The position numbers were made by a program, and so were the translations under genes. The notes beneath the pieces were generated by a model. That model did no database searches. It worked only from the letters and a program-made list of their open reading frames with translations, and was not told the origin of the DNA. 64,000 nucleotides of DNA from Chitinophagaceae bacterium (lineage in GTDB: Bacteria > Bacteroidota > Bacteroidia > Chitinophagales > Chitinophagaceae), in contig CANFHA010000021.1 of the NCBI GenBank assembly GCA_947446645.1, positions 1-64,000 of the forward strand, given 5' to 3'. Position 1 is the stretch's first letter, and each line of letters opens with the position of its first letter. This document shows, one piece after another, positions 1,326 to 12,920 of this stretch.

Positions 1326-2852
1326 ATGCTAAATATTAGGCACATATTACGCTTACATACACAAAACCAGACCATGTCTGAAATTATTGTTCAGACCGGA
1401 ATTCGGCGTGCTACATTAAAAAAGATAATTAGTGATTTTAAGGAAAGCAAATTAAGTTTTGCTGAGATAAATGAGCTTGCTGATAAAGACCTGGAGGAAT
1501 TGTTCAAAAAACCGGTTGAAGATGCTCTAAGTCCGAGATTGCAAACCTTATATAGTTTATTTCCCCAGATAGACAGAGAGCTTAGAAAGACAGGGGTCAC
1601 TAAAGCTCTATTGTGGGAAGAGTATAAGAAAAAATATCCCGATGGTGCCAGTAGCACTGCCTTTCGATTCCATTTTTCACAATGGAAATCTAGAAAAATT
1701 CCCGTCATGCGGCAAAATCACAAAGCGGGAGACAAGCTGTTTATTGACTTTGCCGGCGAAAAGTTAATAATTATAGATAAAGAATCAGGTAAAGAAAAGC
1801 CAGTTGAGGTTTTCGTTGCGGTATTAGGGGCAAGCCAGTTGACCTTCATAGAGGCAGTGATGACCCAACGAAAAGAAGACTTTATTTCAGCCTGTGAGAA
1901 TGCTCTCCACTATTTAGGGGGTGTGCCCGCCGCTATAGTACCTGATACCCTTAGATCGGCTGTAACAAAAAGTGATAAATACGAGCCTACCATAAATGAG
2001 ACATTTGCCGACTTCGCGGAGCATTATAATACCACGGTTTTACCTGCGAGAGCTTACCGGCCAACTGATAAGGCGGTTGTGGAAAACACCATTAAGATTA
2101 TCTACAGCAGGGTTTATGCGAAATTGAGAGACCAAACATTCTATTCGCTTGATCAACTAAATAACGCAATTGCTGTTTCTCTTGAAGAGCACAATAATGT
2201 AATTATTACCGGGAAGGATTTTAGTCGGCGACAGAAATATGAGGAGATTGAAAAAGCAGCATTAGTTCCGTTGCCTGCAATACGTTATGAGTTTAAAAAG
2301 CAACTCTTTGCGACAGTCGGAAAAAATGGACATGTTGCGTTGAGTCCCGATAAGCATTATTACAGCGTTCCATATACCTGTATTGGAAAGAGAGTGAAAG
2401 TGTTATTTACGAATTACAACGTTGAAATCTTTGACAACTATCAAAGGGTTGCAATTCACAAACGATTGCAAAGCCCATTTAAGTATACCACAGACAAGGA
2501 GCATCTGCCCCCGGCTCACCGTTTTGTTGCTGAACTCGAACCAGATAGATTTTTGTCAATGGCAGATGAGATTCACAGAGACGTAAAACTATATATAGCA
2601 AAAATTCTGGAACTCAAACAACATCCAGAACAGTTGTATAGAATTTGTATGGGAGTTTTAAGCCTTTCAAGAAAATATGGTGCTGAACGCTTGACAAAAG
2701 CCTGTCAACGTAGTTTAATATTTGGTATTTACAACTACCGCATAGTAAAGAAGATTCTTGAAGGCGGTTTGGACACATTGGTTGAAGAAGATTGCGATGA
2801 AATTGAAATGCCACCACATGATAATATCAGGGGCGGTGATTATTATAAATAA
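1326..2852 (+). CDS. istA: IS21-family transposase IstA
   Basis: This 508-residue protein is the DDE transposase of an IS21-type element. Residues about 10-40 form a helix-turn-helix (MSEIIVQTGIRRATLKKI). The integrase core carries the catalytic triad at D141 (FIDFAGE), D207 (VPDTLRSAV) and E253 (KAVVENTI). The C-terminal third is the beta-barrel region (HVALSPDKHYYSVPYTCIGK). The length is normal and the frame intact, so the enzyme is probably functional. istB starts 12 bp after its stop, the usual IS21 arrangement. It begins 73 bp after the broken AraC gene, which leaves little room for a full left end. Confidence 0.95.
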   Translation: MLNIRHILRLHTQNQTMSEIIVQTGIRRATLKKIISDFKESKLSFAEINELADKDLEELFKKPVEDALSPRLQTLYSLFPQIDRELRKTGVTKALLWEEYKKKYPDGASSTAFRFHFSQWKSRKIPVMRQNHKAGDKLFIDFAGEKLIIIDKESGKEKPVEVFVAVLGASQLTFIEAVMTQRKEDFISACENALHYLGGVPAAIVPDTLRSAVTKSDKYEPTINETFADFAEHYNTTVLPARAYRPTDKAVVENTIKIIYSRVYAKLRDQTFYSLDQLNNAIAVSLEEHNNVIITGKDFSRRQKYEEIEKAALVPLPAIRYEFKKQLFATVGKNGHVALSPDKHYYSVPYTCIGKRVKVLFTNYNVEIFDNYQRVAIHKRLQSPFKYTTDKEHLPPAHRFVAELEPDRFLSMADEIHRDVKLYIAKILELKQHPEQLYRICMGVLSLSRKYGAERLTKACQRSLIFGIYNYRIVKKILEGGLDTLVEEDCDEIEMPPHDNIRGGDYYK

Positions 2853-2864
2853 AAAAGATAGACA

Positions 2865-3596
2865 ATGAACGAAGCAACACTAGAAAAAATGCGGAAGATG
2901 AATCTCTTCGGAATGCACCGGGCATTCAAAACAAGCATCGAATCAGGTAAAACGGACAATTATACACCTGATGAGATGGCCAGTCATCTTATAGATTCTG
3001 AATGGGATGACAGAAAAAATCGCAGTATTGAGCGACAACTGAAAAATGCCAGATTTAGATATAAAGCATCCGTGGAAGAGCTTCAATTTGAGGGAGATCG
3101 AAATATTGATAAGAACCAGCTAATGCGTTTTGCTGATTGCTCATTTATTGGCAAGTACGAGAATATTTTAATTACCGGAAGCACTGGCATTGGTAAAAGT
3201 TACATTGCTACTGCAATTGGTCATCAGGCTTGTTGCCTCGGTTATAGGGTGCTTTACCACAGTGCGCCAAAACTGATGAGTAAATTGAAAATTGCAAAAG
3301 CTGATGGCTCGTACATTAAGGAAATGGCCAAAATAGAAAAGCAAGATTTACTTATTCTCGATGATTTTGGCATTCAACCGTTTGATGCAGCCGGCAGAGC
3401 CATGCTCATGGAAATCATTGAAGACCGGCATGGGAAGGGTTCAGTAATAGTTACTTCTCAATTGCCGGTTAGTAAATGGTATGATATTATTGGGGATAAA
3501 ACAATGGCCGACGCTATTCTCGACAGGATTATACACCAATCACATCGCGTAGAACTTAAAGGTGAATCCATGAGAAAAAAGGCTAAACTTAAATGA
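2865..3596 (+). CDS. istB: IS21-family helper ATPase IstB
   Basis: This 243-residue AAA+ ATPase assists IstA in target selection and strand transfer. The Walker A motif is at residues 105-112 (GSTGIGKS) and Walker B at 161-167 (DLLILDD). The N-terminal helical part (MNEATLEKMRKMNLFGMHRA) is typical of IstB. The frame is complete. Its stop is only 10 bp from the convergent stop of the AbiEii-type gene, so no IS21 right end fits directly behind istB. Either the right end was lost, or the AbiE pair lies inside the element. Confidence 0.95.
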   Translation: MNEATLEKMRKMNLFGMHRAFKTSIESGKTDNYTPDEMASHLIDSEWDDRKNRSIERQLKNARFRYKASVEELQFEGDRNIDKNQLMRFADCSFIGKYENILITGSTGIGKSYIATAIGHQACCLGYRVLYHSAPKLMSKLKIAKADGSYIKEMAKIEKQDLLILDDFGIQPFDAAGRAMLMEIIEDRHGKGSVIVTSQLPVSKWYDIIGDKTMADAILDRIIHQSHRVELKGESMRKKAKLK

Positions 3597-3606
3597 CAGA
3601 CTGTGA

Positions 3607-4848
3607 TCATGCTTGCGGCTGAATTGAAATACTTTCAAAATTCAGTTGGTCATTACGGTAGTTGAACAAAACCTCAAAAGTGATAGTCTTATTACCTGGT
3701 CCAGCAGGCAAATAAGGATCGGATACATAAATCACGGGTGTTGAATAGCTTGCTCCGTTTCGCCGTTCAAATGCAGGCCACGCCTCAATTGTCGCAATAG
3801 CCAAATTGATAACTTCATCAAGTGTCTTTTGTTCGTGTTTCAGTCTAATACGGCCCCGGAGCATTTTGAGTGAAGATATAATTTCATCAAAGGCTGGAGC
3901 TTCATCGTAGATCATTTGTTCACGCATCCTTTCGTAGTCTTGCTGATAATCCTCTATTACATCCTCAATCGGAATAAACGAGACTGTCGCGTTTGACAAA
4001 GATGCGTAATCAACCCATGAAATGCGGCTGTACCATTGCCTGTGCTGAATTAGGTCATCATATAGTTGATGGTCTGTTAGAGCCGCAATACCAGCCAGCG
4101 AATTCATGATTTTATAAAGATCATATAAATGGCGTGACATACGCTCAGCTCGAATTCTTGCCCTATCAGGTTTGCCAAATTCTTCGTGTAGCAAAAAGAT
4201 TTTCTCAAGAAAGGTTTTTCGCGGTTCTACTACCTCAACTGGAAACGGAATTTCCGAGTATGCTTGCTTAGCATTAAATGTGTGCAAGATGGACTGAATG
4301 TTAACCGTTGTGAAGGGTATGCGCATAGACCGGACACTTACCTCAATTTTTACTGTATCGGCAATATATTCATTAGGCTCGTACAGGGATGGATAATGAA
4401 CAAGTAAAGTTTGTGGGTCGGTATCCGGCATGTTATCTGGTACGGGAGCTGCTTCAATCCTTACCGTGCCTTCAGGCAACCCAAGGTTTCTCAACTGGTT
4501 TGCCAGTTCATCCCGGAGTTGGTTACTTGTAAAAGTGCAGCCAGCTCTTTTCAGGTCACCCAATTGCTTGCGTGTAGGGTTTTCCACATAAGCCATGTTA
4601 AATGCAGCAGGGTCAAGGGCTATGTCTATATCTTCCGAAAAGCGAGCAATAAGATTCCAACATTTACTTAGCGATGTACCGCCTTTAAAAACCATGTGCT
4701 GACGGTATGCAGACTGAAAAAGTGCTTTCAATGTGAGTGTTACCCACCAGTCTTTTTCTATTGCTTTTGCCTGAATACCGCTGATTATTTCGGCTTCATC
4801 TATTACTGCTTTTCTTTGCACGTCCGTTAAATTCAACCAGCCAATCAT
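3607..4848 (-). CDS. abiEii: AbiEii/AbiGii-type nucleotidyltransferase toxin
   Basis: This 413-residue protein belongs to the AbiEii/AbiGii toxin family, nucleotidyltransferases that block growth in response to phage. The N-terminal half shows the family hallmarks: KGGTSLSK at residues 55-62 and the metal-binding FSEDIDIAL with D73 and D75. A second conserved block with R/K residues (EPRKTFLEKIFLLHEE) follows. It forms an operon with the upstream antitoxin gene; the stop of that gene and this ATG share a 4-nt ATGA overlap, so translation is coupled. It converges on istB with 10 bp between the stops. The role in phage defence is inferred from the family. Confidence 0.9.
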   Translation of the reverse strand: MIGWLNLTDVQRKAVIDEAEIISGIQAKAIEKDWWVTLTLKALFQSAYRQHMVFKGGTSLSKCWNLIARFSEDIDIALDPAAFNMAYVENPTRKQLGDLKRAGCTFTSNQLRDELANQLRNLGLPEGTVRIEAAPVPDNMPDTDPQTLLVHYPSLYEPNEYIADTVKIEVSVRSMRIPFTTVNIQSILHTFNAKQAYSEIPFPVEVVEPRKTFLEKIFLLHEEFGKPDRARIRAERMSRHLYDLYKIMNSLAGIAALTDHQLYDDLIQHRQWYSRISWVDYASLSNATVSFIPIEDVIEDYQQDYERMREQMIYDEAPAFDEIISSLKMLRGRIRLKHEQKTLDEVINLAIATIEAWPAFERRNGASYSTPVIYVSDPYLPAGPGNKTITFEVLFNYRNDQLNFESISIQPQA

Positions 4849-5453
4849 TTTTTGTCTTTTTTGAGGAGTTTTACAATAAAGTTGTTGACTTTCACTGTTG
4901 TCAACTTCAGGTCATGTAATAGTGTGGGGTAATCTTCCTGTAGAAGCAGTGATCGCAGCTTTTCTTTTGTTGCTTCATCAATTTTTCCCACTCCGAGTTC
5001 TTCTATTGCCTGAATAGCAAGGCTGCTGATCTTTCCCTTTTGCTCCAGTCGCTTGTGACTGGTTGATTTAAACTTGATTTGCAACCGTCCAAATGTAAAT
5101 TGGCGCGGGTGTCCATCCGTAATATATACTCGTCGTGTAGGGACTTGGGTTGTCAGGCCGAGTTTATGCAACGCGTAAGCGCCCGCTGGCCGAACCTTAA
5201 TTTTTTCTTTTTCAGCAAGCATTTTAACAACATCATCTGCGCCAGGTCTAAGTTCTCCTAAATCTGGATCAACTTGCGGTACATAATAAACCCCATGGGC
5301 GAGCCGTTTTATCAGCCCTTCCTCGCATAACCGTGATAAGGCTTTTTTGATAGCCATATCGGTGCCGCTTCCATAGAAGTCCGAGGGAAATATTAATTCG
5401 CCCTTTTTCATACGGGTAATGGCGTTCCTAATATGTGTATGCACTTTTTCCAT
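4845..5453 (-). CDS. abiEi: AbiEi-type antitoxin (DUF6088)
   Basis: This 202-residue protein has an N-terminal winged helix (residues about 8-58, KGELIFPSDFYGSG then ALSRLCEEGLIKRLAHGVYY) and a C-terminal domain (RPAGAYALHKLGLTTQVPTR) typical of DUF6088/AbiEi antitoxins. Family members neutralise the AbiEii toxin and repress their own promoter by binding inverted repeats. The first gene of the pair, it overlaps the toxin gene by 4 nt. The 5' flank carries repeated GTCAC half-sites, consistent with autoregulation. The start at 5453 is supported by the position of the operator just upstream. Confidence 0.88.
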   Translation of the reverse strand: MEKVHTHIRNAITRMKKGELIFPSDFYGSGTDMAIKKALSRLCEEGLIKRLAHGVYYVPQVDPDLGELRPGADDVVKMLAEKEKIKVRPAGAYALHKLGLTTQVPTRRVYITDGHPRQFTFGRLQIKFKSTSHKRLEQKGKISSLAIQAIEELGVGKIDEATKEKLRSLLLQEDYPTLLHDLKLTTVKVNNFIVKLLKKDKK

Positions 5454-5455
5454 TT

Positions 5456-5523
5456 GTCACCAATTTTGCAAATATAGTGACTTTTAACCGAATGAATGTC
5501 ACTATATTTTAGAAAATGGTGAC
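5456..5523 (-). promoter_or_regulatory. Putative AbiEi operator with GTCAC inverted repeats
   Basis: A perfect 12-bp inverted repeat, AAATATAGTGAC (5470-5481) and GTCACTATATTT (5498-5509), is separated by 16 bp. It is flanked by GTCACC at 5456-5461 and GGTGAC at 5518-5523, which form an outer inverted pair. The cluster begins 3 bp upstream of the antitoxin start codon. AbiEi proteins are known to repress through paired inverted repeats, so an autoregulatory site is the natural reading. Confidence 0.7.
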
Positions 5524-5550
5524 ATTCTATTCGTTTTGAGAAATCGAAAT

Positions 5551-5659
5551 GATGAAAAAAGTACCCAGCTCACGAGTCTAATATTAGCCTCAAAATCAAG
5601 TGGTTGAGAAAAATAGAGATAGAAAAGGTACCTAGCTAGGACAAAAACGGCACCCAGCT
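5551..5659. repeat. Three 20-bp direct repeats, IS21-like terminal repeats
   Basis: Three aligned 20-mers occur at 5551-5570, 5618-5637 and 5640-5659. They share a GA start, an A-rich core, G(T/C)ACC(C/T) and an AGCT end. Multiple short repeats at one end are a feature of IS21-type elements, where IstA binds. They sit between the AbiE promoter and the end of the helicase/PLD operon and so may mark the right edge of the IS unit. The remaining sequence of the 320-bp spacer (5454-5773) holds only the AbiE operator. Confidence 0.5.
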
Positions 5660-5773
5660 CCACCAGGAAAACCGTATGTATTTAGTCGCGGTTCTTACTA
5701 GCCTTTATGCGAACAATAACGAGCGATTTGATAAACAGTTGTAGTATCTCACATAGTTGGAAACGGGTATAGC

Positions 5774-7240
5774 TCACTTATTTAAAGAGTTGCTCAAAAT
5801 AGAGTGACGGTTAGCATAAAATATTTTTGCTTCCTTATACGGAGAGAGAAGTTCAATATCTGCTGGATTAAATTCTTCATTAATAATCACCCACTTTTCA
5901 TTATGTCCTTTCTCGACTATCTCGTATTTTCCGATAGGTCTATAATTATCTTGGGTGACATTTATCTCGGCGACAAGCTTTAAGGCAATTGATTTTATAC
6001 TATGATCGTTTATACTGGGTTGTTGTTCAAAAAATCGACACAGGTCCGCAACGCTATTAATCCTTTGCTTTCGGTCTCGATGATCATTAATCAATACCTT
6101 ATTCGTCAGTTTACCATTCTTGAAAATGTAATGCTGGCTAATTTCTTGTATTGCTGCCTGCCGCAACACTTTCATAGGAAAAAGACTTCTCCAGCAGTGA
6201 TAAATTTTGCAAAGTGCCTCAGCCTGCACCAGCGATAACTTTACTCCTACTTCAAATCCGTTCAGCAGACCGTCTCTCATCAGGTTGGCAGTAAACAAAT
6301 AGCCTATACTTTCATCGATCAACAAGGATTTAGCATGCATAAGGGGGTGAAAAAATATTTCGGCACCTGCTGTAAGGAGAGGTTTTAATTGTTCATTAAG
6401 TAATATTTCAACGGGACGACAAAATATCGTAACAGCAATACCATCTTGGGCCTTCACGATAATTTGCTTTACAATTTCCTCACTTTTATCCAACTGAAAA
6501 GTTGAAAGAGAAATAGATTTTTTTGCATTTTTAACGGCATCCAACAAAGAAGCTGCGAGCGTATTATTCTTTTCGTTAGGAGAAGTCAACAAAACGGATT
6601 CCATTTTAGGCAGCGAAAATTTCCCTGCTGGCCTGACTTTGGTGAATTCAGTACTTGATGTTTGCTCATCACTTGCATGTTCCCAAAAGTGATACACAAA
6701 TATCTTATACAGCTCTGTGCATTGCTTAATGGTAAGCTGCATCGCAAGTTCAGGATTCTTTGTGAATCCGTTTTCTGTAAAATTGTTGGTACAGATAAAG
6801 CCAATAGGATTTGTTCTTGGGTCTATCAGGATATATTTTGCATGAAAATTCTTTGCGGATCTATGGATAAAGTGATTCTTGAATTTCTTGTCCAGAAGCT
6901 GAATGTATTCTAATTTAATAAAACTTTGTTCTTCCTCAATTGTTTCCTTCAACCTGGCCTCGACAGAACTCAACACAAAAACTCTTACATGCCTTTCAAC
7001 TGCGTTTAATAAAGCACTAATTACCTCTGTATCTTGAATGAGAAATGATTGCAAGCAAATCATTTCTTTTGATTGCTTTATAGCAGTAAGTATTTTTGAT
7101 AGGAAAACTCCCTCTTCTCCCGATTCAATTATTGGCAGCTCTTTTTTCTCGGTGGACTTCCAACCGGGTCCGTTCGGCAATATCGGGAACTGGATCAGTC
7201 CCTCATTTAGTATAAACAGTTCTTTTGTTAGTGCTTTCAT
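5774..7240 (-). CDS. PLD-family nuclease-like protein, third gene of helicase operon
   Basis: This 488-residue protein has two phospholipase D repeats, each with an intact HKD motif: HAKYILID (H133, K135, D140) followed by TNNFTENGF, and HAKSLLID (H302, K304, D309) followed by TANLMRDGL. Two HKD motifs in one chain make a complete active site, and in defence loci this fold usually acts as a nuclease. The last 140 residues have no domain that I recognise. Translation is likely coupled, since the start lies 1 bp after the stop of the preceding gene. With an SF1 helicase in the same operon, a DNA- or RNA-degrading defence role is the best inference. A lipid substrate is unlikely, as there is no signal peptide. 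Confidence 0.8.
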   Translation of the reverse strand: MKALTKELFILNEGLIQFPILPNGPGWKSTEKKELPIIESGEEGVFLSKILTAIKQSKEMICLQSFLIQDTEVISALLNAVERHVRVFVLSSVEARLKETIEEEQSFIKLEYIQLLDKKFKNHFIHRSAKNFHAKYILIDPRTNPIGFICTNNFTENGFTKNPELAMQLTIKQCTELYKIFVYHFWEHASDEQTSSTEFTKVRPAGKFSLPKMESVLLTSPNEKNNTLAASLLDAVKNAKKSISLSTFQLDKSEEIVKQIIVKAQDGIAVTIFCRPVEILLNEQLKPLLTAGAEIFFHPLMHAKSLLIDESIGYLFTANLMRDGLLNGFEVGVKLSLVQAEALCKIYHCWRSLFPMKVLRQAAIQEISQHYIFKNGKLTNKVLINDHRDRKQRINSVADLCRFFEQQPSINDHSIKSIALKLVAEINVTQDNYRPIGKYEIVEKGHNEKWVIINEEFNPADIELLSPYKEAKIFYANRHSILSNSLNK

Positions 7241-7241
7241 T

Positions 7242-8390
7242 TTAGTAATTCAAGTATTCTATGGCTTCAAGTTTAGCGGATTGATAAAAGGCATCATTTC
7301 TCATGGTAAACAATTCGATTAGTTCTTTTCTACCGGGAGTAACAATGTCGTAGTATGACTTAAGCGGCGATGCCAAATCATTTGCAAAATCAGAAAACGA
7401 ATTTTCGTCAAAAAAGTACGCGTCAATATTTCTAAATAGAAGCTCTCTAAGCCATAATTCAGCACTTTCCCGATCGCTTGGTATATGGGAGACATTTTCA
7501 AGATCGACTTGTTTGAATACTATTCCTTTAAAAATGGGCCTTTGGATTGTGACACTTCGCTTAAAGCTAAGATCGTCCTTGTCGAATTCTACTAAAACAG
7601 CCTTTTGCTCTTGATAGTAATCAAGCTCTTCTGAGTTCACCAATAACTGTTCCTCCAAATTTTGCTCACTTATTTCAATGTTTGTTCGAAGCAATAGCTG
7701 GCCATCTCTATTAATATTAATAGAACTATCGTTCCCAATGGAACGAATTTGCAAGTCGCAACTTATAGGCTGTAATCGAAAACACTTCCCTTCGATACTC
7801 TCAAATTGAATTTCGGATCCATCTATCGACAGAATTTGATTTTCAAGTTGACTGATTTTGGTCGGTGTAGGGGTAACTCTATCTTCACCCTTATCATCTT
7901 CCGGTCTCTGAACTTTTTCGATCTTGATTACTGATTGATCGATGAAACTTGAATTACACACAAATACATTAAATAATCCTTTTTCTCCGACCCAAATTGA
8001 TTTGTCCGATGCACACGCTTTGCCTTGATCTGTTAGTATGAAATTTGCTTCGGTGTTCCTTTTTGAATTGACTATACTATCGAGATATTTCTTGGCTCTG
8101 TCGATGTTGCGTCCATTTCTTAGAAGTGCATCCCTAAACATATCATCAGTAATTTCAAGTTCTTCATCAGATTCCAAATAGCCTTGTTGCTCTAGCCGAG
8201 ATAGTAGATTGTAACAAGCTCTCTTAGGCAATGCAGGCAGCAGAGTTTGTCTCAAAGATTCAGAAGATACCTTTCCCTGCTCGTGAGCGAGAATCAATAT
8301 TGCAATGAAGGGGCTTTGTTTTGCTTTTTGCCTCAGAGCAATCTCAACCTGATACCTATCAATTTTCTCGTCTCGCTTTAACAATATCAT
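7242..8390 (-). CDS. Uncharacterised winged-helix-like protein, middle gene of helicase operon
   Basis: I do not recognise this 382-residue protein as a named family. Residues about 25-80 look like a winged helix (ILAHEQGKVSSESLRQTL, then NLLSRLEQQGYLES). A charged linker with a PTPTK segment sits near residue 175, and a mostly beta-rich middle follows. The C-terminal 100 residues are helical. There are no membrane segments or catalytic motifs. It starts 2 bp after the helicase stop, and its stop is 1 bp before the PLD start, so the three proteins are made together. It may be the nucleic-acid-binding or adaptor subunit of a complex. That is inference from position and fold only. Confidence 0.65.
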   Translation of the reverse strand: MILLKRDEKIDRYQVEIALRQKAKQSPFIAILILAHEQGKVSSESLRQTLLPALPKRACYNLLSRLEQQGYLESDEELEITDDMFRDALLRNGRNIDRAKKYLDSIVNSKRNTEANFILTDQGKACASDKSIWVGEKGLFNVFVCNSSFIDQSVIKIEKVQRPEDDKGEDRVTPTPTKISQLENQILSIDGSEIQFESIEGKCFRLQPISCDLQIRSIGNDSSININRDGQLLLRTNIEISEQNLEEQLLVNSEELDYYQEQKAVLVEFDKDDLSFKRSVTIQRPIFKGIVFKQVDLENVSHIPSDRESAELWLRELLFRNIDAYFFDENSFSDFANDLASPLKSYYDIVTPGRKELIELFTMRNDAFYQSAKLEAIEYLNY

Positions 8391-8392
8391 TT

Positions 8393-10978
8393 CTAATAAC
8401 GAATATTTGATTCAAAATTTAATGCTAATTCTCTAAGGGCAGGCAATTTTGCCTTTTCTTCAAACCACCTCCTATTCCCAAATAAAAGTAATTTGTGTCT
8501 TGCTCTTGTCAATGCCACATTCAACCTGTTAGGGCTATTGAAGTGTGCGTCTTTGGTATATTTCGTAAAACCAAGTAATACATAGTCTGCTTCCTGCCCC
8601 TGAAATTTGTCAACCGTGTAAAGAAAAATATCTGCGTTATACTTATGAAACTTTGAGAAATAGCCCTGATTAGTAATTCTTCTGATTCTTTTTCTTAGTT
8701 CATTTTCTTGATTCAAATAGAAGGTTAGCACTGCCACTTCATATTTTTCACCATTCAACTTGGGATTTTCTCGAGTCCAATCTAAAAATTTCTCAAGTTC
8801 AAAGCACATATCATCGACTTCGCGTGGATTAAAAATTTTGCCGTTAGTCCAATTGAGAAAATTACTTAACTCTCTTTTAAAGAACTTATTATGCTGATTG
8901 TTATATTTTAAAAACCAATTTTCTAATTCACGATGGTTTTTCTCGAATGGGAGGGTACAATCATAATTATTGTGGATCCATTTTACAACAGGTTGATTTG
9001 CCAAATATTTCCAACCTCTATCTTGTAAAACCGTGTTGGCTGATTGTAGATTGTTTTGATAAAAGTTCTCCCTTGATGTTCTTGCTATGTCAGGGTGCAT
9101 CCTATGTTGGTAACTAAGTGATACAAACCTGCTCTTTTTATACTCAGCATGAAACCCATCACTCAGCACTCTGTTGTTTCGCTGCCCTTCTCCCTTGCCG
9201 ATTCCATTTTGTAATAATTCTAGTATGGAAGGAAATACTAACCGCTTTATTTGGTTAATATCATTCCGAATTTTAAACGGAATAAGGTAGTTTAACTCAT
9301 TTTCTATGTTTTGAAATTCTGCACCGGCACTTCTGAAACTAAAGCTCTGGTTTAATCGGCTCGCGACCATGTCAGCCCACTCTTCTTGTCTGCAATCAAA
9401 AACATAGTGAGGAGGGATTTTAAAAGTTTTTCTAAGGTAATTTTGCCGATATCTCTGTGTATTCCCGACTGTGTCGGCATTAATGAAAATGCATTTTACT
9501 TGAACGTTACTCAGTAAACGCTCTCGGGTAATTCTGTCGGAACTTGCAATTATTACATCGGAGGAATTGATTTTGGTCACGCTATTTTCGTCAGCTTCCC
9601 AATCTTTGTTTACAGTTTCAATGATTAGTTCACCATTATCAATTAGTGTTCGTTCAATGTCAGGATTTTGGTCTGTGAAATAAACTTTTAGACAATCGTT
9701 AAATTTTCCATCGTCTAATTTTGCTTTAATTTCAAACTGCCTTACGATTGCTTTTTGAGTCTCTTCATCCAACATTCGTGCAATATTTTCAGAGACATAA
9801 TCACTTTCTACATAAGGTGAGAGTTGTTTTACATCTCCGACTAAAATCCATTTTTTCGCGTGAAGCGCAGGAACGATAAAGTCGGAGAACGTTACTTTTG
9901 ATGCTTCATCGACTACTAGCACATCAAAACTTGCCCCTTGTTTGTTAGCTCGAATATCAGGGTGTTGTAGTATTCCAATCATCGTTCCTGCAACAAGATT
10001 TGCGGAATCAAGGATTATTTTTTCGACAGGATCTGTTCCTCTGCCATCTTTAGAAAAGAGATTTTCTAAAAGAAATTTTTGACTTTCAAGTTCCTGATTC
10101 TTAAGTACGTGTTTCTCGATTTCGGATTTGTATGTCGCAACAAGATTATTAAGCAGATAGGGTCTAACACTTTCCTTTACTGGCTTATCATATCTGCTTA
10201 TTCTGACTGGAACAATTTCTTTGTCGCATATATCCTTATATCTGCCTTTTACTCTTTCAATAACATTATCGATTGCTGCGTGCGTTGCTGAGCAAAGTAA
10301 GATTCTTTTTCCTTCTGCTGCCAACTGCCAGATTAGTTCAATGATTGTAGTGGTCTTGCCCGAACCCGGTGGACCTTCAAGAAGTGCGAAATCGTTTGTT
10401 TGTAAACTCTTTAAAACAAATTCTTGTTGTTGGGACACTCCACTTTTTGCTCCATCAGTTAGAATTTGCCAAATGCACTCACTCGGCTCGTAATCTTGCC
10501 GCCAAAAATTATCGTCGGGTGAACCGAATAAGTTAAGAAGTGGTCGGTGTTCGCTTAATGGCTGATAACGAAGGGTGTCAAGTGCTCTTTTTTGTTGCTC
10601 AAGTTGGTATGTATCCGGCTTTAAGTAAATGGTGTCCCCTTCAATGTCTGCTTCGAGTATTAGATAATTTTCATCTTCGTTTTGATCTTTTATGTTTATT
10701 CCGTCAGAAAAAAGAAAAGACTTGTTTTGATCATAAACTATTTTAGTATTCTCACTAAATAGTGTTTCAACAGCTTTTTCCGTTCTCTTATCAACTTGGG
10801 GATTGGGGATATATCTTGTTTCCCCATTTATTGTTACCCGGCTCACTTTTATCGCTAACGTTTCTTTTTTCAGGAAATCAATGGACTTTGTGATAAAATC
10901 AGTGTATCGATTAATATCATGGTTTGCATTTCGCAGAACCCAGTTTTCAACGCCCGTATTTAAATGGAACAAGTTCAT
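8393..10978 (-). CDS. SF1 helicase (COG1112/UPF1-like), first gene of defence-like operon
   Basis: This 861-residue superfamily 1 helicase has intact motifs in order. Motif I is GPPGSGKTT (202-210), Ia-like ATHAAIDNVI follows, motif II is DEAS (357-360), motif III GDVKQLSP (391-398), motif IV-like SYQHRMHPDI (622-631), motif V DKFQGQEAD (790-798) and motif VI LNVALTRAR (819-827). A long insert separates motifs III and IV. This architecture matches AAA_11/AAA_12 helicases found in Mokosh and other defence loci. There is no kinase or nuclease domain in the same chain. The frame stays open for 25 codons upstream of the first ATG and looks coding (ISGDDKTFNYLAYLHC), but it holds no canonical start, so the N-terminus is uncertain. 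Confidence 0.88.
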   Translation of the reverse strand: MNLFHLNTGVENWVLRNANHDINRYTDFITKSIDFLKKETLAIKVSRVTINGETRYIPNPQVDKRTEKAVETLFSENTKIVYDQNKSFLFSDGINIKDQNEDENYLILEADIEGDTIYLKPDTYQLEQQKRALDTLRYQPLSEHRPLLNLFGSPDDNFWRQDYEPSECIWQILTDGAKSGVSQQQEFVLKSLQTNDFALLEGPPGSGKTTTIIELIWQLAAEGKRILLCSATHAAIDNVIERVKGRYKDICDKEIVPVRISRYDKPVKESVRPYLLNNLVATYKSEIEKHVLKNQELESQKFLLENLFSKDGRGTDPVEKIILDSANLVAGTMIGILQHPDIRANKQGASFDVLVVDEASKVTFSDFIVPALHAKKWILVGDVKQLSPYVESDYVSENIARMLDEETQKAIVRQFEIKAKLDDGKFNDCLKVYFTDQNPDIERTLIDNGELIIETVNKDWEADENSVTKINSSDVIIASSDRITRERLLSNVQVKCIFINADTVGNTQRYRQNYLRKTFKIPPHYVFDCRQEEWADMVASRLNQSFSFRSAGAEFQNIENELNYLIPFKIRNDINQIKRLVFPSILELLQNGIGKGEGQRNNRVLSDGFHAEYKKSRFVSLSYQHRMHPDIARTSRENFYQNNLQSANTVLQDRGWKYLANQPVVKWIHNNYDCTLPFEKNHRELENWFLKYNNQHNKFFKRELSNFLNWTNGKIFNPREVDDMCFELEKFLDWTRENPKLNGEKYEVAVLTFYLNQENELRKRIRRITNQGYFSKFHKYNADIFLYTVDKFQGQEADYVLLGFTKYTKDAHFNSPNRLNVALTRARHKLLLFGNRRWFEEKAKLPALRELALNFESNIRY

Positions 10979-11131
10979 GCAGTGAAGATAGGCAAGATAA
11001 TTAAATGTCTTATCGTCTCCACTAATAGTAATGCTGGATAGTGTTCGTGTTATTTAAAACCTGTTAAAAACTGCTCAATTGCCCTCAAATCTTCCATGAA
11101 AAAGTTCGAAGTTTGGCAACCCACGCGCACA

Positions 11132-11168
11132 AAAAAAGACAAATCGGATTAGCTGGTTTGTCTTTTTT
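11132..11168 (-). terminator. Hairpin terminator, AAAAAAGACAAA stem
   Basis: A 12-bp perfect inverted repeat, AAAAAAGACAAA and TTTGTCTTTTTT, encloses a 13-nt loop. The stem itself ends in A and T runs, so it could act on either strand. It lies between dnaB and the helicase operon, downstream of the stronger dnaB terminator on the minus strand, and would insulate the operon from dnaB read-through. Confidence 0.55.
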
Positions 11169-11187
11169 GTTTTTGGCGCGTTTTAGC

Positions 11188-11221
11188 AAAAAAAAGCGAA
11201 GCAGCTATCGCTCTTCGCTTT
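11188..11221 (-). terminator. dnaB terminator
   Basis: A 9-bp stem (AAAGCGAAG with CTTCGCTTT) with an 11-nt loop is followed on the minus strand by a run of eight T. It begins 17 bp past the dnaB stop, as expected for an intrinsic terminator of that gene. Confidence 0.75.
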
Positions 11222-11237
11222 CTAATTTTCCTTGTTA

Positions 11238-12920
11238 TTAAAACGGCGCATCCTCATCCGGTGGCGGCGTCTTCTTGAACGGTGTGCCGCTGCCAAAATC
11301 ATCGTCGTCCCAGTTGGTGTCATTTACTTTCGACTGTAATGTCTGAAAGCCGCTGGCTGGTACATATAGCTTTGAGCCGCCAAAGTCGCTGGTATCGCGG
11401 CGTATGCCTGCACTTGGGTTTTCCCGCGGTGGGGTAGGTCCGCCCTGGTTGCCGCCACTGCCGCCACCATTGAAGCCGCCGCCGCCAGCTCCTAGTTGAT
11501 TGAAGCGGTTATCTTCCAGGTCTACAAATTTCTGGTATTCTTTTATGAAGCGCACCTTCACAGTGCCTGTGCTACCATTTCTGTGTTTTGCAATATGTAT
11601 ATGGGTTTCACCCTCTATGGTCTGTCCCATTTCATCATTGTTGATGCCGTAATATTCCGGGCGATACAGGAACATAACCATATCCGCATCCTGCTCTATC
11701 GCGCCCGATTCACGCAGGTCACTCAGCTGGGGTACTTTCGATTCCTTTCTTGTTTCTACGGAACGGTTAAGCTGAGACAGCGCTATTATAGGCACTTCCA
11801 GCTCTTTTGCAAGTGCCTTCAGGTCGCGCGATATCTTACTGATTTCCTGCTCACGGTTGCCGCCTTTCTCTATACTGGCCTGCATCAGCTGCAGGTAGTC
11901 GATCAGTATCATCTGTATATTGTGCTTTTGCTTCAGCCTCCTGGCTTTGGCACGGAGCTCAAATATGTTCAGCGCCGCCTGGTCATCAATAAATATCTTG
12001 GCCTGCGCCAGCTTGGTCATACGTTGCGACATCTGCACAAACTCATGCTCTGCCATTTTACCACGGGTTATGGCCTCCATATGCACTTCGCTTACACAGC
12101 TCAGCATCCTTTTTACTATCTGGCCTGCACCCATTTCAAGCGAGAAAAGTGCCACCGGAAACTGCTTGCCGGCATTCATGGCAGCATTCATGGCCAGGTT
12201 CAGGGTGAATGCCGTTTTACCCACCGCCGGACGGGCGGCAAGTATGATAAGATCGGTTTTTTGCCAGCCGCCGGTAAGTGCATCCAGCTCTTTAAACAGC
12301 GATGGCACGCCGGTAATATCATCAGTTTTTTTCCTGTTCTCCTCTATTTCAGCTACTGTTTTTATTAATACTTCGTTCAGGCTCTTAAAGTTCTTACGCA
12401 GGTGTTTGTCCGTGATCTCGTATAGGCCCGATTCGGCTTTATCCAGCAGGTCAAACACGTCCGTGCTGTCTTCATAAGCATCGCTGATGACTGACCCGCT
12501 GATACGGATAAGTTCGCGCTGAATGAATTTCTCCATCACGATGCGTGCATGCGCTTCTACGTGTGCGCTGGAGAGAACGCTCATTGTAAGGCGGGTAAGG
12601 TAGTATGCACCGCCTATTATCTCAAGTTCATTTGTCTTGCGTAATTCCTCAGTTATGGTCAGCAGGTCCACCGGTGTGCCCTTATCAAAAAGGCGGCGCA
12701 TTGCAGAGTATATTTTTTGATGTGCATCCACATAAAAACAGTCCTCGCTCTGAATGATTTCCAAAACCTGCGCAAAAGTGTCTTTTTCAAGCATAGATGC
12801 CCCCAGAACTGCTTCTTCGAGTTCAGGAGACTGTGGCGGTATCTTACCATAAACCAGGTTTGTAAGGTCTGGTTTCCGGTTTCGTGTACCGCCAAAATCT
12901 TTTTTAATATTTACTGCCAT
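11238..12920 (-). CDS. dnaB: Replicative DNA helicase DnaB
   Basis: This 560-residue hexameric helicase unwinds DNA at the replication fork. The N-terminal helical domain (PPQSPELEEAVLGASMLE) is followed by the RecA-type core with Walker A ARPAVGKTAF, Walker B MILIDYLQLM, and SQLNRSVETR and LRESGAIEQDADMVMFLYRP. No intein interrupts the core. The C-terminal tail is low-complexity, rich in Gly (FNGGGSGGNQGG), then acidic, as in other Bacteroidota. It is divergent from pheT across a spacer with DnaA-box-like sites. Its terminator lies directly behind it and separates it from the accessory island. Confidence 0.97.
   Translation of the reverse strand: MAVNIKKDFGGTRNRKPDLTNLVYGKIPPQSPELEEAVLGASMLEKDTFAQVLEIIQSEDCFYVDAHQKIYSAMRRLFDKGTPVDLLTITEELRKTNELEIIGGAYYLTRLTMSVLSSAHVEAHARIVMEKFIQRELIRISGSVISDAYEDSTDVFDLLDKAESGLYEITDKHLRKNFKSLNEVLIKTVAEIEENRKKTDDITGVPSLFKELDALTGGWQKTDLIILAARPAVGKTAFTLNLAMNAAMNAGKQFPVALFSLEMGAGQIVKRMLSCVSEVHMEAITRGKMAEHEFVQMSQRMTKLAQAKIFIDDQAALNIFELRAKARRLKQKHNIQMILIDYLQLMQASIEKGGNREQEISKISRDLKALAKELEVPIIALSQLNRSVETRKESKVPQLSDLRESGAIEQDADMVMFLYRPEYYGINNDEMGQTIEGETHIHIAKHRNGSTGTVKVRFIKEYQKFVDLEDNRFNQLGAGGGGFNGGGSGGNQGGPTPPRENPSAGIRRDTSDFGGSKLYVPASGFQTLQSKVNDTNWDDDDFGSGTPFKKTPPPDEDAPF

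Follow-up and report, generated by a model that had tools for sequence, protein, structure and literature searches.

Mokosh defence systems are described as type I, in which the helicase carries a kinase domain and an enzyme of the phospholipase D (PLD) superfamily is the second gene, and type II, in which helicase and PLD are fused (PMC11672841). In the CoCoNuT systems, the usual successor of CnuH-related helicases is an elongated winged helix-turn-helix (wHTH) domain joined to one of various effectors, which in type III-C is PLD; type II is associated with RtcR homologues (PMC11090510). Beyond the rtc operon, RtcR-like proteins occur too, frequently next to restriction-modification systems (PMC4012209). 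We analysed a three-gene operon in 64,000 nucleotides from a Chitinophagaceae bacterium (GenBank assembly GCA_947446645.1, contig CANFHA010000021.1, positions 1 to 64,000, hereafter the window), which encodes a superfamily 1 (SF1) helicase, a middle protein that we call MID and a PLD protein. In listings and passages of open-licence PMC papers, no description of a helicase-MID-PLD operon was recognised.

The trio probably serves specifically in defence against phages or other mobile DNA, with the helicase as sensor, MID as adaptor and the PLD protein as nuclease. Sequence comparison showed intact catalytic motifs, a strict helicase-MID order and, in what we term the short form, PLD as the next gene; it likewise showed defence-rich neighbourhoods, horizontal spread of a cassette and an association between sigma-54 sites and an activator gene. 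In the window, the three open reading frames (ORFs) are intact, start with ATG, lack internal stops and lie on the minus strand at the coordinates of the original prediction, with spacings of 2 bp (helicase-MID) and 1 bp (MID-PLD). The features discussed are as follows:

8393..10978, minus strand: helicase gene (gene 1), 861 aa, SF1 UPF1-like; predicted sensor/translocase
10349..10375, minus strand: helicase Walker A motif GPPGSGKTT, residues 202-210
7242..8390, minus strand: MID gene (gene 2), 382 aa, with a model-supported N-terminal winged helix; predicted adaptor
5774..7240, minus strand: PLD gene (gene 3), 488 aa, two HKD motifs; predicted effector nuclease
6821..6844, minus strand: PLD HKD motif 1 (H133, K135, D140), kept in 60/60
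6314..6337, minus strand: PLD HKD motif 2 (H302, K304, D309), kept in 60/60, 60/60 and 59/60
10979..11237, minus strand: presumed promoter region, from the dnaB stop to the helicase start, without a sigma-54 site
3607..5453, minus strand: AbiEi/AbiEii pair, context outside the operon

The gene order recurs widely. A helicase-first scan of a genome collection, from which the best 80 of 163 relatives were kept as loci, placed MID directly downstream of the helicase in 80/80 loci and PLD next after MID in 63 of the 69 with 1500 bp or more past MID; four of these PLD matches are weak (L035, 3e-23; L086, 2e-16; L071, 1e-7; L095, 2e-4). The loci are not wholly independent, since three are seed contigs (L025, from G383; L026, from G003; L036, from G098) and others are near-copies (L046-L048, L050, L052, L053, L056 and L067). 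Searches starting from MID agreed. Their confident hits outside the window, G003 of the same genus, G098 of the same order, G383 of the same phylum and a plasmid of Vibrio aerogenes, show the helicase-MID-PLD order in 4/4 cases, that of G003 being read in two pieces across a contig break inside MID. The MID profile, whose first version of six rows gave 58 distinct sequences to iteration one, was iterated on the 80 loci. MID occurs once per genome in 41/41 re-searched genomes, and a confident MID was present in 2/395 genomes of the phylum, one of them the window's own. Later MID-first samples gave 7/390 genomes of an order (centred on Marinomonas) and 14/235 of a phylum (centred on Sorangium); seven of these 21 genomes were known already, and the helicase adjoins MID in 14/14 of the others, one of which (G978) is the contig of L054, leaving 13 new.

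Loci come from Bacteroidota, Chlorobiota, Acidobacteriota, Pseudomonadota, Myxococcota, Planctomycetota, Verrucomicrobiota, Spirochaetota, Campylobacterota, Bacillota, Fibrobacterota and several archaeal phyla, these labels being open to misbinning as many of the genomes are metagenome-assembled. Because the same gene order recurs across phyla, the trio goes beyond a chance arrangement. The original prediction had staked itself on two points here: in the loci examined, confident MIDs, far from being confined to housekeeping loci, always adjoin this helicase, and the order is conserved, with MID following the helicase at every helicase-first locus. A MID search of phage records found nothing, and a scan of viral contigs with a single MID protein found no relative. 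A helicase scan of viral contigs returned two IMG/VR contigs (L164, L165) with a long-form helicase-MID pair.

The helicase matches the Pfam families AAA_11 (1e-33) and AAA_12 (1e-27), and its PDB relatives SMUBP-2, UPF1 and DNA2 place it as an SF1 UPF1/SMUBP-2-like enzyme, which we take to be of the COG1112 type. Across 81 aligned helicases, the Walker A, DEASK, GDxxQL, QxRM, FQGxEAD and TRA motifs are near-invariant; in Walker A, the G, P, P, G, G, K and T are kept in 81/81, the S in 79 and the final T in 76. The window helicase clusters with four Bacteroidota-type rows in the helicase tree (support 99), and no kinase domain was found for it among 25 of the 26 Pfam families matched. The PLD protein has two PLDc_2 stretches (6.6e-23, Pfam), and its motifs were compared across the window protein and 59 homologues picked for strong, single, full-length profile matches. 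As the HKD residues are invariant or nearly so and the helicase motifs near-invariant, both catalytic centres appear to be under selection. An AlphaFold2 model of PLD (pLDDT 93.9) has the two-lobed PLD fold; rows for MHC proteins in its PDB search look like chance. Its best defence-library relatives (PADLOC) are DrmC (1.6e-18) and, weakly, MkoB (3.7e-7).

No model in the libraries used represents MID, the constant partner of the helicase. The window protein has no convincing match in Pfam, NCBIfam 20.0 or PADLOC 2.0.0, its top Pfam match being SelB-wing_2 (E 0.005, under its cut-off). Across 61 members, the widest Pfam match reaches 4 members and the best E overall is 3e-4, winged-helix models included; NCBIfam gave no match and PADLOC one model in one member (2e-4). 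Three weak MID matches (G084, G363 and G411; E 4e-4 to 7e-4) were dropped as chance, there being no helicase-profile match in the stretches examined. A phmmer search of MID against the PDB found nothing. The AlphaFold2 model, built from 53 sequences (pLDDT 94.3), opens with a long strand and a winged-helix region reaching residue ~130, followed by a beta-rich part as far as ~305 and by C-terminal helices. Foldseek gave no PDB match for this model at E 0.001, and the believable fold matches are winged-helix regulators of ~100 residues (HsmR, PadR-type and ST1889; probability 0.80 to 1.00), so the N-terminal winged helix is supported by the model while staying sub-threshold by sequence. The beta-rich and C-terminal helical parts have no match in the PDB, a fold search of viral structures left the picture unchanged, and rows for FtsA/MreB and viral glycoproteins were dismissed at TM-scores near 0.1. 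The original prediction had named an SF1 helicase with all motifs, two undamaged HKD motifs in the PLD enzyme, intergenic spacings of 2 and 1 bp, an apparent N-terminal winged helix in the middle gene and, for that gene, no explanation by known models; each of these held, the last for the PADLOC and NCBIfam versions used.

For a comparison of neighbouring genes, 20 loci on long contigs were selected from the 80, and a crude caller supplied ORFs of 200 aa or more (130 in all, 123 at up to eight per locus, 110 used at up to six per locus). At E 1e-20, the 110 neighbours match 157 PADLOC families, versus 2 for 110 distant controls from the same genomes; the enrichment is clear but rough, because 157 counts redundant PADLOC models rather than proteins matched and 25 of these families are listed. 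Three of the 20 loci (L048, L056 and L067) have near-identical flanks. In G003, McrC, McrB, AlbA_2, DUF4062, a DrmMI-like methylase and a DpdE/DrmD-type helicase stand in line upstream of the trio; in G383, an AbiP2-type reverse transcriptase lies 59 bp upstream. The Vibrio aerogenes plasmid carries cas1-cas2 and type III-B CRISPR genes beyond the cassette, and a Pontibrevibacter plasmid has dndBCDE ~8.7 kb from the trio, which was found on three plasmids. A cassette of four genes is 91-99% identical at the DNA level in 8 gammaproteobacterial species of 7 genera. The block that L053 has in common with L046-L048 begins at the helicase's first start codon and stops 2 nt beyond the stop of the fourth gene, which indicates that the four genes travel as a unit.

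Side observations on these neighbourhoods include a same-genus defence island (L010:3250-17433) in which McrC, McrB, an AlbA_2/HATPase protein, a DUF4062 protein, a DrmMI-like methylase, a DpdE/DrmD-type helicase and a protein weakly matching MZB/DUF559 all stand in line with the trio. They also include a second UPF1-like helicase gene, which adjoins the cassette in L053 (upstream, minus strand) or another MkoA-like helicase in L136. On a Vibrio rumoiensis plasmid (L101:9654-17513), a large protein without assignment, an Hsp70-family protein and an AAA ATPase lie past the cassette; these neighbours recall parts of CoCoNuT type III.

The fourth gene (~460-530 aa) follows PLD in 41 of 63 testable loci, 17 of the 80 being untestable. 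A Sigma54_activat domain is present in 4/4 products scanned and a GAFTGA-type loop in 24/27. The same four products also gave an RtcR match below threshold (E 0.002) and matches to Csm6-CARF at 0.007 and 0.019; we regard the gene as a putative RtcR-like sigma-54 activator, the CARF part of that label being weakly supported. A sigma-54 (-24/-12) site, taken as a match scoring 10 of 11 or better in the 300 nt before the helicase, was sought in the 61 of 63 testable loci with sufficient upstream sequence, where starts were predicted from the profile, so that sites may be missed. It was found in 19/40 loci with the activator gene versus 0/21 without (Fisher 7e-5). Phylum confounds this contrast; a control inside the loci themselves was therefore made, in which 1/231 regions upstream of other genes of these 40 loci carried a site (Fisher 3e-17). 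After removal of near-copies, 19/33 activator-gene loci have the site. In those species, this sequence evidence makes control of the operon by a sigma-54 activator very probable, its own being the simplest candidate. The window is without the four-gene form: AbiEi follows PLD, the best sigma-54 site scores 4 of 11, and the window's genome has no RtcR-domain match. Nor do the Bacteroidota-type rows that group with the window helicase have a fourth gene wherever testable. The window thus belongs to the short form, in its three-gene version.

Several observations weigh against reading the trio as a defence system with a PLD nuclease. Six of the 69 loci (L060, L088, L090, L094, L097 and L099) have no PLD-profile match, and the profile matches only 2 of the 14 MID-first genomes, one weakly; one of the 14 contigs stops right after MID. 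A long-form branch, with a helicase of ~1050-1170 aa and a MID of ~450-550 aa, has a different downstream protein of ~530-850 aa without a recognised PLD; among six scanned, PLDc_2 is weak in two (L097, 1e-5; L071, 0.002) and absent from the other four. The modelled PLD fold resembles lipid enzymes as well as nucleases (PLD3, PLD4), G098 (L008) has no obvious defence neighbour and, by eye, apparently housekeeping genes around it, and 21/40 activator-gene loci have no sigma-54 site by the threshold used. At 13 MID-first loci examined, no downstream protein has two HKD patterns, and 10/13 MIDs carry a C-terminal extension of 112-209 aa. Because the long form lacks a recognised PLD downstream, helicase and MID are the constant core and PLD is the predicted effector of the short form.

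Long-form loci, whose helicase is enlarged and whose MID often is, include L071, L073, L078, L086, L088, L090, L095, L097, L099 and L168-L179. Many of their MIDs have an extra C-terminal domain bearing a DRYV-type motif, and several loci have an upstream gene of 513-536 aa, AAA+ proteins in the two cases scanned.

Of the other explanations, kinship of the trio with the CoCoNuT CnuH-CnuE module, as a free-standing version aimed at RNA and lacking the McrBC part, is unlikely. In its favour are the published plan of CnuH relatives, with wHTH-effector proteins, PLD in type III-C and RtcR with type II (PMC11090510), and the McrB and McrC directly upstream of the trio in G003. Here, however, wHTH and PLD are separate genes, and a single-sequence search of the flanks found McrB- and McrC-like proteins together in 2/80 loci (L026, which is G003, and L037) and either in 4/80, with no McrB- or McrC-like match in the window. 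We hold it distinctly improbable that the trio is a Mokosh type I variant that lost its kinase domain, gained a gene and works in the same way. MkoA is the best PADLOC match of the helicase (5e-84), and PLD weakly matches MkoB; but the MkoA match, in two stretches, scores 281 bits, and its best stretch aligns helicase residues 60-416 with profile positions 505-852 of 1112, leaving positions before ~505 unreached. The trio helicases of G501 and G497 likewise cover MkoA positions 505-1081 and 619-1081, whereas two proteins spanning the full profile score 668 and 803 bits, and the helicase-PLD pairs of the latter (L134, L135; PLD called by two HKD-pattern matches) are adjacent, without MID. In a quick helicase tree with long branches and odd letter make-up, and hence tentatively, 53 trio helicases fall on one side of a branch (SH-aLRT 99) and seven helicases from six MkoA-profile loci on the other; among those six loci, a kinase-like HGD(I/L)HPGN pattern occurs in L136, L137 and L139 and in none of L134, L135 and L138.

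A role in stress response or in repair of RNA or DNA, Rtc-like rather than defensive, seems very unlikely to us, even though the activator gene and sigma-54 promoter are reminiscent of the RNA-repair operon rtcBA. Nucleic-acid turnover, too, employs UPF1-like helicases and PLD enzymes, which counts for such a role; against it stand the patchy occurrence (2/395, 7/390 and 14/235 genomes), the three plasmids, the horizontally spread cassette and the defence-rich neighbours. Least probable of all is an abortive-infection device in which PLD attacks membrane phospholipid: cardiolipin synthase models and phosphatidylserine synthase structures are among the PLD matches, but DrmC and MkoB, its top defence-library relatives, are described as nucleases, and its partner is a nucleic-acid helicase.

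If the trio is a defence system, the UPF1-like helicase would load onto foreign or damaged RNA or single-stranded DNA (ssDNA) and travel along it. MID, through its winged helix and beta domain, might bind the helicase, nucleic acid or both, coupling the helicase to PLD, which would cut nucleic acid with its two-HKD active site. In four-gene relatives, the RtcR-like sigma-54 activator would turn the operon on from the -24/-12 promoter before the helicase, a step missing from the window form. We infer, from the features described, complex formation, the target sensed, nuclease rather than lipase activity, and protection. Most likely, helicase, MID and PLD would form a complex directed at phages or plasmids that operates as Hachiman or CnuH-CnuE do and that, in the four-gene form, is induced at the level of transcription. 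Tentatively, and with more doubt than confidence, we go further and suggest that the MID family defines an immune system of its own in bacteria and archaea, in which the helicase hands foreign or damaged RNA or ssDNA through MID to an effector, PLD in the short form and other proteins in the long form, and in which the four-gene form may be induced, through the RtcR-type sigma-54 activator, by a signal born of infection such as damaged tRNA. If true, this would tie RNA-damage sensing directly to a helicase-nuclease weapon. The four-gene form predicts that the operon stays off in the absence of a particular stress or phage signal, a way to learn whether sensing of the RtcR type triggers immunity. 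A strictly ordered set found from Bacteroidota and Pseudomonas to archaea, amid defence genes, is probably a real immune system unnamed in the PADLOC and NCBIfam versions used.

The surroundings in the window fit the original description of an AT-rich island beside an AbiE pair and an IS21 element: GC is 37.0% in the trio, 45.1% in the whole window and 49.3% in the adjoining dnaB, AbiEi/AbiEii lies 320 bp downstream of the trio, and IS21 istA/istB lies further on. AbiEi/AbiEii is a type IV toxin-antitoxin pair whose ORFs overlap by 4 bp (window 3607-5773); by eye, an inverted-repeat-like sequence immediately upstream of AbiEi could be its operator. The IS21-family istA/istB (1326-3596) is on the outer side of the island; the window, which begins at the contig start, does not show the island's far border. 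Gene content downstream of dnaB is highly variable in the genus (14 sister genomes, L183-L196, two pairs alike), which suggests that the region (window 10979-12920) is an insertion hotspot in the genus. The trio is not among the first six genes downstream of dnaB in these genomes (four where the contig ends).

As for the larger claims of the original prediction, candidate defence status stood, but the prediction was supported only in part: it had not seen the frequent fourth gene or the long-form branch without a recognised PLD. Its proposals, a search against defence-system models and a co-occurrence count, led to a MID that no PADLOC or NCBIfam model covers and a set that recurs near defence genes. 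Its view that the locus is not Mokosh also held, neither kinase domain nor helicase-PLD fusion having been found. The plan is also less unprecedented in view of a published case, a UPF1-like helicase followed by a wHTH-effector gene (PMC11090510).

Among the known systems, DISARM has in DrmC likewise a PLD-superfamily protein of a multi-gene defence locus; the DrmC label was rejected for PLD, whose 61.5 bits compare with an NCBIfam cut-off of 133. Of the DISARM partners, no DrmMI- or DpdE/DrmD-like match occurs in the window, and DrmA and DrmB are absent from the seven proteins scanned. Hachiman consists of two genes, of protein families other than those of the trio. Its HamAB pair resembles the trio only in how it works, as a sensor helicase controlling an effector nuclease (PMC12278908). 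With RtcR and RtcR-like proteins (PMC4012209, PMC9650030), the fourth gene shares a sigma-54 AAA+ activator and, with weak support, a CARF-like N-terminus; unlike RtcR, it is tied to helicase-MID-PLD and not to RNA repair enzymes. Mokosh shares with the trio a COG1112-type helicase and a PLD enzyme (PMC11672841), but the trio has no detected kinase domain, no helicase-PLD fusion and an extra gene, MID, which stands between helicase and PLD wherever all three occur, in place of the two-gene layout of type I. The Mokosh label was therefore rejected on kinase, fusion, gene number and, tentatively, the helicase tree. Like the CnuH-CnuE module of CoCoNuT, the trio combines a UPF1-like SF1 helicase with a following protein that has a model-supported wHTH and a predicted nuclease effector, and many relatives have a putative RtcR homologue nearby; unlike it, the trio keeps wHTH and PLD as separate genes, and the activator gene lies downstream, as the fourth. 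CoCoNuTs are marked by the McrB-type GTPase CnuB, the McrC-like CnuC, a UPF1-like CnuH with inserts and, often but not as a core part, a TerY-P triad. Membership in CoCoNuT was rejected, as a single-sequence search of the flanks found no McrBC in most loci, yet its plan is still the nearest one described.

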